Both the position numbers and the translations under genes were made by a program. From positions 1-32,266 of IMG/VR virus record IMGVR_UViG_3300035438_000114: a DNA stretch of 32,266 nucleotides; one strand, given 5' to 3'. Shown one piece after another: positions 21,278-32,080 of the stretch. The DNA is from a virus. Below the pieces are notes generated by a model, which was not told the origin of the DNA, searched no databases, and saw only the letters and a list, made by a program, of their open reading frames with translations. Within the stretch, counting starts at the first letter, position 1. Each line of letters starts with the position of its first letter.

Positions 21278-21332
21278 ACAAATTTTTTATTAATAATAAA
21301 ATAAAGTCATAATTGTATTAAACGTGTTAAAC

Positions 21333-21361
21333 AAAAAAAAGACCTACATTTCTGTAAGTCT
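21333..21361 (-). terminator. Rho-independent terminator ending the structured RNA unit
   Basis: On the minus strand AGACTTACA (21353-21361) pairs with TGTAGGTCT (21340-21348) around a GAAA-type loop (21349-21352), with one G-U pair, followed by a run of T (21333-21340). It ends transcription from upstream before the tail operon. Confidence 0.9.
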
Positions 21362-21490
21362 AATTTTAGTATAGATTTGTTATTGGTACTATACCACGCA
21401 AGGAAGTCCTTATCTTGCACCTTCATTCGTGAGTTATCAGATACCCCAATGAATTTACGTGTACTATCTGAGTCAACGCAACGCTATCTT
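21362..21490 (-). ncRNA. Candidate structured RNA with H-type pseudoknot
   Basis: A 129-base gene-free stretch between the 40-aa Cys-rich gene and the terminator. On the minus strand TCAGATA (21465-21471) pairs with TATCTGA (21437-21443), seven base pairs. TTCATT (21448-21453), lying inside that loop, pairs with AATGAA (21422-21427) outside it, six pairs, which is a pseudoknot. Farther 3', GCAAG and CTTGC (about 21399-21419) can close another hairpin, and GGTA-TAG-TACC a small one. Base composition is clearly richer in G and C than the neighbourhood. It matches no RNA family I can name; tRNA features are absent. The TATATTTG element at 21639-21646 may drive it. Confidence 0.5.
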
Positions 21491-21493
21491 TAT

Positions 21494-21836: not shown

Positions 21837-23852
21837 CTAATATATAAAATAGTTTCCTTTATTTGGATTCTCTAATTGATAACCTACTGCATAACGTAAC
21901 GCATCTATACAATTATGAACCAATATACCATTTGCAAAATATTCGTGGCAATCTTCCACCATTAAATCATAAACTTGAGCCTTGTAACTTTCTCCTTGCT
22001 CGAAGTGCTTTAGCTTTGCAGTTATTATGGCAGTATTTAGAAACTCCTCCGTGTCTTGTTTCATATTCTTTATTACATACTTCGCAATTATGTTTTTTAT
22101 ATTCTCTATTATGCCAAGTCTTTTTACCTTGTTCTTTATGCCATTGCAATCCAACTTCTGATTTATGCCATTCTTTTGCTGCTTCAATTCCTTTTGAATG
22201 AAATTCTTTAAACCATTCTGGATTGTCTTTAATTCTTTTTTTACCTGTAAACCTTTGATGTAAAGATTCAAGAACCATATTGAGATTTGATATGTTATTA
22301 TTTTGTGTGTTACCATCAACGTGGTGAATATGGTATCCTTTAGGAATATCCCCTTTATAGTGTTTCCAAACTTCAGTATGTAGTCTTGTTGTTCCTCTAC
22401 TAAAATATTTTTCGTTTTTGTAAAGTTTAAAATCTTTTCCGTTAAACCATTGTACAGGAATATTCTGTCCTGATTCTGTAATTGTGAAATTTGTTTCCAT
22501 TTATTAATAGTTTTAATTTTATGTTCTTTAGTTGAACACAAAGATAACGCCAAAGTATCGAATTGCATCGAGTACTTATTAACATTTTTTACACCATTAT
22601 TAAAATTTACTAATACCTTTTTATATCCTTTACTTGTTAAAACTAAATCACCTACTTTTATTTTATCTATTCTAACTTGACCTTTAATTGTTGTTATTAA
22701 AGTATCTCCTGTAAAACAGTGGTTATGATTATCTATTGGTGTATTTGATTTCTTTTCTAACCAACTGTAATTATTTAACTCTTTAATTAGATTAATTGAT
22801 TCAGGTGATATTATTAAATCATAATCTTGTAATAAAGATATACCATAAGTAACTGAACCTTGACCTTTAATTGCAGGAACTATATTTAATCCTGCCGAAT
22901 GTAATTCAGATATTAGTCTCGGTTCAGCACTATCGGCTACTATTAAACTATCTAAACAATGTTGCTTATTTAAAGCGTATATTTGAGACGTTGTTAATGC
23001 TTGTAAATAGAAACGTTCATTTATATAAATTCGTTTGTTAGATGTATCTATATTGCATTCTACTAATGTTGTTGGGTCATTACTAAAACCAAAATCTTGT
23101 CCAAATACAGATTTACTTACTTGTTCGTATTTCCCAATAGTCCAGTTATTAAATATAACTCCTTCTGCTTTATCTAACCAGCCACCAAGTATTTGATGTT
23201 TGTACTTTTCAGGTCTACGTAATTTTATATTCTCTATTTGATTTATAAATGATTCAGAAAGATTATTTATATTATCTAAATATGTTGTGTGAATATATGT
23301 AGTATCTCCTTTTATTAAATTGCTTCCATCTTGTACTCCTTTATCTTCAAAGAATTTCTTATAAATAAAATGTTCTTTTGTTGCTGGATTTAAAACTAAT
23401 AAAACTCTATTGTGAATTCCTTTTGTTCTTATACTAAAATCTATCTTTTCAAATGTTTCTTCATCTGTTAATTCTTCTGCTTCATCTAATACCCAAGTAG
23501 TAACTCCTGCTAAAGATTTTAAATTTGCTGTTTGTGTCCCACTACTTGTTTTAATACCTTTAAATAAGATTTTAGACCCTGTTTTAAGATTTACTATTTC
23601 ATCTTTAGTTATATAAAAATCGTGGCTTAAATCAGCTGTTTCAATCTTATCTATAAATTCAGGAATAATAGAAACGTTTGCAGATGTTAAAGTATAACGA
23701 GTAAATAGAATAACGTGTCCTGCTTCGTATGTTAAAGTAAGTAGAAAAGAGTTCAAAGAATATGATTTCCCTGAACCTCTACCACCTGTAATTACAAAGT
23801 ATCTACTTTCAGAACCTAATAGATTAAATTTCGGATTGATTAATATTCCCAA
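21837..23852 (-). CDS. terL: Terminase large subunit interrupted by an intein
   Basis: 671 codons as read, of which residues 379-647 are an intein; the mature terminase would be 402 residues. The ATPase part has Walker A GGRGSGKS (23-30) and Walker B TTWVLDEAEE (118-127); the nuclease part has GQDFGFSND (251-259) with the first catalytic Asp, ADSAEP (306-311), and, after the intein, CIDALRYAVG with the last catalytic Asp. It packages DNA into the prohead. The intein splits this last motif between His378 and Cys648. Only a TTG start (23850-23852) is available, since an in-frame stop lies 15 bases upstream and no ATG follows until deep in the gene. It overlaps the small subunit by 29 bases. Confidence 0.92.
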   Translation of the reverse strand: MGILINPKFNLLGSESRYFVITGGRGSGKSYSLNSFLLTLTYEAGHVILFTRYTLTSANVSIIPEFIDKIETADLSHDFYITKDEIVNLKTGSKILFKGIKTSSGTQTANLKSLAGVTTWVLDEAEELTDEETFEKIDFSIRTKGIHNRVLLVLNPATKEHFIYKKFFEDKGVQDGSNLIKGDTTYIHTTYLDNINNLSESFINQIENIKLRRPEKYKHQILGGWLDKAEGVIFNNWTIGKYEQVSKSVFGQDFGFSNDPTTLVECNIDTSNKRIYINERFYLQALTTSQIYALNKQHCLDSLIVADSAEPRLISELHSAGLNIVPAIKGQGSVTYGISLLQDYDLIISPESINLIKELNNYSWLEKKSNTPIDNHNHCFTGDTLITTIKGQVRIDKIKVGDLVLTSKGYKKVLVNFNNGVKNVNKYSMQFDTLALSLCSTKEHKIKTINKWKQISQLQNQDRIFLYNGLTEKILNFTKTKNILVEEQQDYILKFGNTIKGIFLKDTIFTTLMVTHKIITYQISIWFLNLYIKGLQVKKELKTIQNGLKNFIQKELKQQKNGINQKLDCNGIKNKVKRLGIIENIKNIIAKYVIKNMKQDTEEFLNTAIITAKLKHFEQGESYKAQVYDLMVEDCHEYFANGILVHNCIDALRYAVGYQLENPNKGNYFIY
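21912..22718 (-). mobile_element. Intein in terL (269 aa)
   Basis: Splicing motifs are complete: block A CFTGDTLITTIKG with Cys1 (residue 379), block B CSTKEHKI with the T-xx-H pattern, then KWKQISQLQNQDRI, block F VYDLMVEDCHEYFANGILV, and block G ending HN before Cys+1 (Cys648). Cys1, the penultimate His and last Asn, and the +1 Cys are the residues needed for self-splicing. The flanking N-extein ends DNHNH and the C-extein starts CIDALRY. Between blocks B and F the frame reads through low-complexity sequence that is the out-of-frame shadow of an HNH gene (21967-22500). Confidence 0.9.
21967..22500 (-). CDS. HNH homing endonuclease nested in the intein, other frame
   Basis: 177 residues. 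The HNH core is GYHIHHVDGNTQNNNISNLN, followed by VLESLHQRF, typical of HNH_3-type homing enzymes; a C-terminal Cys cluster (CEVCNKEYETRHGGVSKYCHNNC) is likely a zinc ribbon. The ATG (22498-22500) lies inside the intein and the frame is shifted by +2 (or -1) from terL. Both frames stay open for 178 codons. It overlaps block F by about 14 bases at its end. It probably drives homing of the intein. Real coding is supported by the intact HNH motif. Confidence 0.88.
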   Translation of the reverse strand: METNFTITESGQNIPVQWFNGKDFKLYKNEKYFSRGTTRLHTEVWKHYKGDIPKGYHIHHVDGNTQNNNISNLNMVLESLHQRFTGKKRIKDNPEWFKEFHSKGIEAAKEWHKSEVGLQWHKEQGKKTWHNREYKKHNCEVCNKEYETRHGGVSKYCHNNCKAKALRARRKLQGSSL

Positions 23853-25853: not shown

Positions 25854-26059
25854 TTTATTTTTATTTTTTGTTTGTTTTTAATTAAATCTGTTAGTACATT
25901 AAAACTTATTATTTCTAATGCTAAATGTATTCCTTGACATTCTTCATATAATTCTAAATCTTCATAGTGTTTTAGTATGTCTCTTACTTGTTTTAAAGTT
26001 GTTCCTTGTTCTATTTCATATAAAGTTAGATTATAATGGTCTATTGCTTTATCATTCAT
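25844..26059 (-). CDS. Hypothetical protein, 71 aa
   Basis: 71 residues, helical, starting MNDKAIDHYNLTLYEIEQGT. It overlaps the glycosyltransferase stop by one base and the DnaA-like start by ten, so it belongs to the same operon. The C-terminus is basic (NKQKIKIKWK). Function unknown. Confidence 0.6.
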   Translation of the reverse strand: MNDKAIDHYNLTLYEIEQGTTLKQVRDILKHYEDLELYEECQGIHLALEIISFNVLTDLIKNKQKIKIKWK

Positions 26060-31459: not shown

Positions 31460-32080
31460 TTAAATTATTTTATTTCCTTTTCTAATATTATCTTCTGCCC
31501 ATAAAGGTTGAAAATTTGTATAATGATTTAATTTTATTAATTCATTTTCATCTTTAGAAAGAGATACAGGATATATATGGTCTAAATGCCATTTACCAGC
31601 ATTATTCCAAGTCATTCCTTCAGTAAATTGTAATTCTAAATGTTGTTTAAATTCTTTAAATGAACAACCTAATATTTCATTAGTTTTAGATTTTTTTGTA
31701 TATCCTTTTCCTTTAATTGACATACCTATTAATGTTCTTAAATTGCAACTTAATTTAAATAACTTATCATTTTCTTTTCTATTTTTTGTATAAACTCTAT
31801 AATAATTATTTATTTTTTCTCTATTTTTTTTACAATATTCTTTTTGTTTTTCTTTAATTTTTTCTTTATTATTTAAACCATATTCTTTTTTCTTTAACAA
31901 AAAACTTTCTCTATTTTTATTATAATAAATGCTTTTATTTTCTTTTATTTTTTCTTTATTATTATTTATATAAATTTTATTACAATAAATACAAGTATTT
32001 TGAAAACCATCTTTTCTTGTTTTATTCTTACTAAATTCAATAAAATCTTTTTCTATTTTGCAAGTACTACATTTTTTCAT
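31460..32080 (-). CDS. HNH homing endonuclease (freestanding)
   Basis: 206 residues. The N-terminus has a Cys pair pattern (CSTCKIEKDFIEF, then CIYCNK), likely a zinc ribbon. A Lys/Asn/Glu-rich middle (about 40-105) is low complexity. The C-terminus has the HNH core WHLDHIYPVSLSKDE and NHYTNFQPLWAEDNIRKGNK, typical of phage HNH enzymes. It is inserted between the small membrane protein gene and the sigma-like gene and is absent from the same locus at the left end. The ATG overlaps the preceding gene's end by 14 bases. Confidence 0.92.
   Translation of the reverse strand: MKKCSTCKIEKDFIEFSKNKTRKDGFQNTCIYCNKIYINNNKEKIKENKSIYYNKNRESFLLKKKEYGLNNKEKIKEKQKEYCKKNREKINNYYRVYTKNRKENDKLFKLSCNLRTLIGMSIKGKGYTKKSKTNEILGCSFKEFKQHLELQFTEGMTWNNAGKWHLDHIYPVSLSKDENELIKLNHYTNFQPLWAEDNIRKGNKII

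Follow-up and report, generated by a model that had tools for sequence, protein, structure and literature searches.

Inteins have been described as single-frame elements in which the endonuclease is a domain of the intein itself. Fractured genes, in which a free-standing endonuclease lies between the halves of a split intein, were reportedly described by Dassa and colleagues in 2009.

The inteins of mycobacteriophage large terminases (TerL) have the usual in-frame architecture and are located in the ATPase domain (PMC5050341). An HNH gene lying out of frame within a large-terminase intein, without an intron signature, was noted in passing in brucellaphages in 2015 (PMC4422536). A hidden out-of-frame HNH, the ShiLan domain, was reported in a mycobacteriophage DNA methylase in 2025; its authors found no intein or intron, and the host protein is considered to be tolerant of the insert (PMC11855218).

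We analysed a 32,266-nucleotide stretch of viral DNA from IMG/VR (hereafter the window), in which a complete HNH endonuclease gene occupies a second reading frame inside the intein of a terL gene. The features concerned are as follows.

21837–23852, minus strand: terL ORF, 671 aa, listed with a TTG start, comprising N-extein, intein and C-extein
21912–22718, minus strand: intein, 269 codons (807 bp), terL residues 379–647
22446–22718, minus strand: N-terminal part of the predicted Hint fold, intein residues 1–91, pLDDT about 86–97
22035–22445, minus strand: middle of the intein frame, residues 92–228, mostly predicted to be disordered or modelled with low confidence
21912–22034, minus strand: C-terminal part of the predicted Hint fold, intein residues 229–269, modelled confidently
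21967–22500, minus strand: HNH endonuclease gene, 177 aa, Pfam HNH_3 match with E=3.3e-12
22501–22503, minus strand: TAA in the HNH frame, abutting the HNH ATG on its upstream side
22498–22500, minus strand: HNH start ATG, made up of the final A of an AAA codon and the TG of the intein Trp74 codon that follows it
21967–21969, minus strand: HNH stop TGA, lying across the conserved intein Tyr250-Asp251 codons (TAT GAT)

The terL ORF matches the Pfam families Terminase_3 (E=1.5e-29), Terminase_3C and Intein_splicing (E=1.1e-10). The initial annotation had claimed a mini-intein with all splicing blocks intact, breaking the last nuclease motif of TerL, and both points are borne out: Cys1, the block B TxxH (here TKEH), the terminal HN and the +1 Cys are all present, and the intein is inserted directly before C-I-D-A-L-R-Y, the last acidic motif of the nuclease. 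It had also anticipated a TerL of about 402 residues after removal of the intein. The computed length is exactly 402 aa (671−269), equal to that of the intein-less TerL of Nonlabens phage P12024S, with which the window's TerL minus its intein aligns without a gap at the junction (DNHNH/CIDALRYAV versus DDYNH/LIDGIRYNV). This empty-site alignment makes protein splicing likely, but no more than that. The model of the intein qualifies as a Hint fold, its Foldseek matches being the RecA, DnaB, gp41-1 and GyrA inteins, and the gp41-1 intein is also its best PDB sequence match. In residues 92–228 the intein frame merely reads through the HNH gene, and the resulting stretch of protein is a by-product.

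Codons of terL begin one base after those of the HNH gene, and terL is open throughout the HNH ORF, so that the separate 177-residue gene previously claimed for another frame is indeed there. The sequence has the HNH motif and zinc-binding cysteines expected of an HNH homing endonuclease; HH59/60, N68, H81 and the four zinc cysteines (CxxC/CxxxC) are invariant in 50 relatives, and the structure model is well folded (mean pLDDT 90.6). The best PDB sequence match, I-HmuI (1u3e), is weak (profile E=0.007, ∼50 residues covered), and Foldseek searches with the model likewise gave only weak matches, with I-HmuI first. I-HmuI shares the HNH core but differs in being encoded by a phage group I intron.

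The brucellaphage TerL intein resembles that of the window in having its HNH gene out of frame inside the intein, which tempers the novelty implied by the initial annotation. However, that passage (PMC4422536) concerns a single phage group and does not analyse reading frames, start and stop positions, related loci or selection, and kinship between its intein and the window's family has not been shown. The ShiLan arrangement is similar in that a second-frame HNH lies in an insertion which keeps the host frame open, and in that similar HNH genes are found beside a methylase gene in other phages. It differs in that the window contains a complete splicing domain that should remove the insert, and the window is thus not of the ShiLan type. 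We found no literature on the window's HNH-intein family, nor on the bias in register, the overlapping start and stop, or the split and free-standing relatives of this family; most subscription papers were outside our search.

Relatives were gathered from IMG/VR and named phages by searching with the HNH protein, an approach that is neutral with respect to frame, and distinct loci were classed by the position of the two intein halves. Both halves flank the HNH gene in 114 loci. A continuous TerL-intein ORF with the HNH gene out of frame is found in 109 of these, 103 having the register of the window and six the other register (L094, L095, L124, L127, L133 and L134). The remaining five (L108, L109, L115, L163 and L164) have a split intein with the HNH gene between two ORFs, and are thus fractured genes built around an HNH of the same family. 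In these, the ORF carrying the N-half stops close to where the HNH gene starts, and a short ORF of its own encodes the C-half; in those that were read, a Met immediately precedes the C-half. The window and the other 108 nested loci share with fractured genes an endonuclease outside the intein polypeptide, but differ from them in that host and intein form one ORF. With classical in-frame inteins, including those of mycobacteriophage TerL, they have in common the insertion at an active site and a splicing domain interrupted by an endonuclease-coding stretch; in the classical form, however, the endonuclease is an intein domain in the same frame, and in none of the 114 loci is the HNH gene fused in frame with the intein. 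Class-1 residues are well kept across the set, with Cys1 in 112 of 114, HN in 104 and C, S or T at +1 in all, and C1, T63, H66, H268 and N269 are invariant in 44 intein sequences. Many nested inteins are exactly 807 bp long despite widely differing sequences, suggesting a constraint on length.

In a further 14 loci the HNH gene has no adjoining intein, and an intact terL is adjacent in those that were read closely. The HNH gene lies downstream of the intact terL in L082, L084, L085, L090 and phages PAE1, SN1 and Poludnitsa, before it in L117 and BP10, and on the opposite strand in Shemara.

The nested form also occurs in Rhodobacteraceae phage LS06-2018-MD07, Acinetobacter phage Highwayman and Tetrasphaera phage TJE1. 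In these three phages only terL is annotated, and the nested HNH gene is missing from the annotation of the named phage genomes L031, L033 and L034. A scan of genome contigs with a gut relative as query found the same nested arrangement in two bacterial genome bins (L175 and L176), while the same scan with the window's HNH protein as query found no relative. An indel in the assembly can be excluded, because identical frames recur in six near-identical contigs (L001–L006), ∼100 diverged contigs, the three named phages and the two bins, in all over 100 other loci. Frame errors and in-frame homologues were the two observations that had been proposed as refuting the arrangement, and neither materialised. 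We conclude that the nested nuclease is no sequencing accident but represents a genuine type of mobile element that is widespread.

The initial annotation further held that so long an open second frame was unlikely by chance and implied selection on both frames. We estimated the expected number of stops from redraws in which the HNH protein sequence was left unchanged and its codons were sampled afresh according to the usage of the locus in question. The window's terL frame should contain 5.1 stops and has none; not one of 400 redraws was open, and chance openness is rejected. Over the 103 loci with the window's register, 488 host-frame stops are expected and none is observed, and the six loci with the other register lack stops altogether where ∼14 are expected in each. 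It is important to note that the nested class is open by definition, and the comparison to be made is therefore of 109 open loci out of 114, five being split, with a mean chance of an open host frame of about 0.04; nor are these counts corrected for shared ancestry. No avoidance of stops is detectable in the free-standing relatives (5.9 seen versus 5.3 expected) or in the split forms (about 5 seen versus about 4 expected).

Selection on the two frames is, however, unequal. Third codon positions of the HNH gene change fastest in the window's register, and dN/dS is about 0.06–0.23 for the HNH frame and about 1 or more for the host frame in the middle of the intein; in close pairs, over HNH codons 26–150, the values are 0.06 and 1.8. 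Comparison of the window with L003–L005 gives 5–13 synonymous and 0–1 nonsynonymous changes in the HNH gene. The HNH frame is under strong purifying selection, whereas the host frame in the middle of the intein is kept merely stop-free, with constraint at its two ends, where roughly 40 codons encode both ordered parts of the intein and HNH protein. Given that the intein model is confident only at the ends and that the host-frame dN/dS is about 1 or more, the middle need only be open. The claim of selection on both frames thus survives, with the qualification that it is the HNH gene that is purified.

The boundaries of the HNH gene fall on conserved intein residues. Trp74, whose codon overlaps the HNH ATG, is invariant, and the codon preceding this Trp ends in A in 61 of 74 thinned loci, versus 29.8 expected from each locus's own codon usage (tail probability about 1e-15, ignoring shared ancestry); as a consequence, ATG, GTG or TTG is formed at the Trp in 71 of the 74. 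The HNH stop lies on Tyr-Asp or Phe-Asp in 44 of 74. The start codon at the Trp appears to be under selection, with the reservation that the count is uncorrected for shared ancestry. Stops expected per gene number 4.7 in the window's register and 19.6 in the other; that the Trp start and Tyr-Asp stop lie in the same register, and that fewer stops arise there, offers a reason for the 103:6 bias. In the window and L001–L006 a TAA directly precedes the ATG, so that ribosomes slipping out of the terL frame upstream of it are barred from the HNH frame. The HNH protein is most simply explained by internal initiation, although no ribosome-binding site has been demonstrated: at normal spacing upstream of the window's HNH ATG we saw nothing that clearly resembles a Shine-Dalgarno site, and the AAGG found upstream of the ATG in many relatives doubles as intein coding sequence.

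We interpret the locus as a dual-coded homing intein, and put the probability of this reading at roughly 0.82. A class-1 mini-intein interrupts the last nuclease motif of TerL, with a complete HNH gene filling the endonuclease slot in the second frame. The entire terL frame would be translated, and the two ends of the intein would form the Hint domain, splice and restore TerL, the out-of-frame middle being carried as a floppy loop. The HNH protein would be made separately, by internal initiation at the ATG overlapping the invariant Trp codon and termination at the stop overlapping Tyr-Asp; it would cut intein-less terL near the insertion site, and repair of the cut would copy intein and nuclease together. 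The anatomy, the conserved arrangement, selection in both frames and spread among unrelated TerLs are what the sequences themselves can establish. Splicing, as well as translation of the HNH protein, cleavage and homing, is inferred; we have no expression or cleavage data, and the target of the nuclease is undetermined.

A self-splicing RNA intron in place of the intein would readily account for an HNH gene in any frame, such genes being common in introns, but we regard it as virtually ruled out, given that an Rfam search of the window gave no match to a group I intron or other known RNA, that the host frame is open in 109 loci, and that the residues of the intein are kept. Scarcely more credible is that the HNH gene is a decaying, unexpressed leftover that is open by accident. 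The absence of expression data leaves room for it; the low dN/dS, the catalytic and zinc residues invariant in 50 relatives and the conserved start do not. Programmed frameshifting from the terL frame, which would yield a fusion of IntN to HNH rather than a free protein, gains some support from the relation of the frames: in 103 loci the HNH gene is −1 relative to terL, and programmed slips most often go in that direction. We nevertheless think it improbable, since the TAA abutting the ATG in the window and L001–L006 would block it, 56 of 74 loci have a stop no more than six codons upstream of the start at the Trp, this start is apparently selected for, and the other register is used both by six loci and by a second HNH family (see below).

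Harder to set aside, though still unlikely in our judgement, is that the protein is not a homing nuclease but aids DNA packaging in the manner of the HK97-type HNH proteins encoded beside terminases. Relatives of the window's HNH gene do adjoin terL in intein-less phages, and HNH proteins that cooperate with terminases have been discussed (PMC10448857, PMC4422536). Nesting within an intein, spread with that intein among unrelated TerLs, the several different gene arrangements and the profile-level match to I-HmuI, a homing enzyme encoded in an intron, all fit homing better. A packaging role is not excluded, and the two roles could coexist.

Evidence for mobility of the dual-coded intein comes from the discordance between insert and host. 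The window and L042 share 71% identity in the HNH protein and 74% in the N-part of the intein, versus only 34% in TerL, and in 942 of 3081 pairs the margin of HNH over TerL identity is greater than 20 points. The inteins are inserted at most a few codons away from one shared motif, in TerLs of both the Terminase_3 and the Terminase_6 type. As far as sequence comparison can show it, intein and HNH gene have spread together among unrelated TerLs. In a tree of HNH proteins, free-standing members are scattered among nested ones (for example, L082, L084 and L085 beside nested L073), with at least four changes of arrangement forced by well-supported branches. Judging from this tree, the arrangements interconvert, but it was built by a quick method, many forks are weak and the root is unresolved, and we cannot establish the direction of change. 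The initial annotation had proposed an intermediate between in-frame inteins and fractured genes; such a link is supported by the relatives in which the intein is split or the HNH gene stands alone, but its direction remains unestablished.

A second family of nested HNH genes was found through L087 (1288–4161), a TerL with two inteins, one at Walker A and one at the nuclease motif. Both inteins hold an HNH gene out of frame, and the two genes differ in family and in register. The HNH gene of the Walker A intein is of the NUMOD4 + HNH_3 kind, in the other register than the window's. All nine distinct relatives of this family that were checked, one being the L087 contig, are host-open in that register; their inteins end before SGKT, and the five tested lack stops where 16–23 are expected. 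Second-frame nesting thus occurs in at least two HNH families. Three further NUMOD4-query matches in annotated phages (L206–L208) lie on or beside other genes and show no nesting, as judged from annotation only. We lean, on balance, towards the broader proposal that inteins have repeatedly hosted overlapping homing genes, the events being independent in no fewer than two HNH families and involving two TerL sites and either register, with the start and stop sites on the fixed Trp and Tyr-Asp codons and the lower stop burden of one register fixing the phase, and loss of continuity giving rise to split inteins.

A separate nuclease gene encoded on the DNA of a splicing protein, in a widespread family, means that the same nucleotides have to serve two proteins at once. 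The arrangement provides a concrete path, open to testing, between homing nucleases that stand alone, inteins and split inteins, and how fractured genes originate can be tested directly on the relatives of split and free-standing form. It also explains why such nucleases escape annotation, as in the three named phages with an unannotated HNH gene inside terL, and supplies naturally occurring inteins of TerL in which an unstructured insert of about 140 residues is apparently tolerated.

Several other features of the window were observed. Some 210 bp between two genes (21280–21493) contain no ORF of at least 60 aa; the minus strand here folds somewhat better than shuffled sequences (z −2.0) and ends in a terminator-like hairpin followed by a U-run, without an Rfam match. 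The minus-strand gene at 26059–26823 matches PHROG 842 (beta-glucosyl-HMC-alpha-glucosyltransferase), possibly indicating modification of phage DNA bases. The window carries a second nuclease gene at 31460–32080 (minus strand), encoding an Endonuclease VII-like protein with weaker HNH matches.
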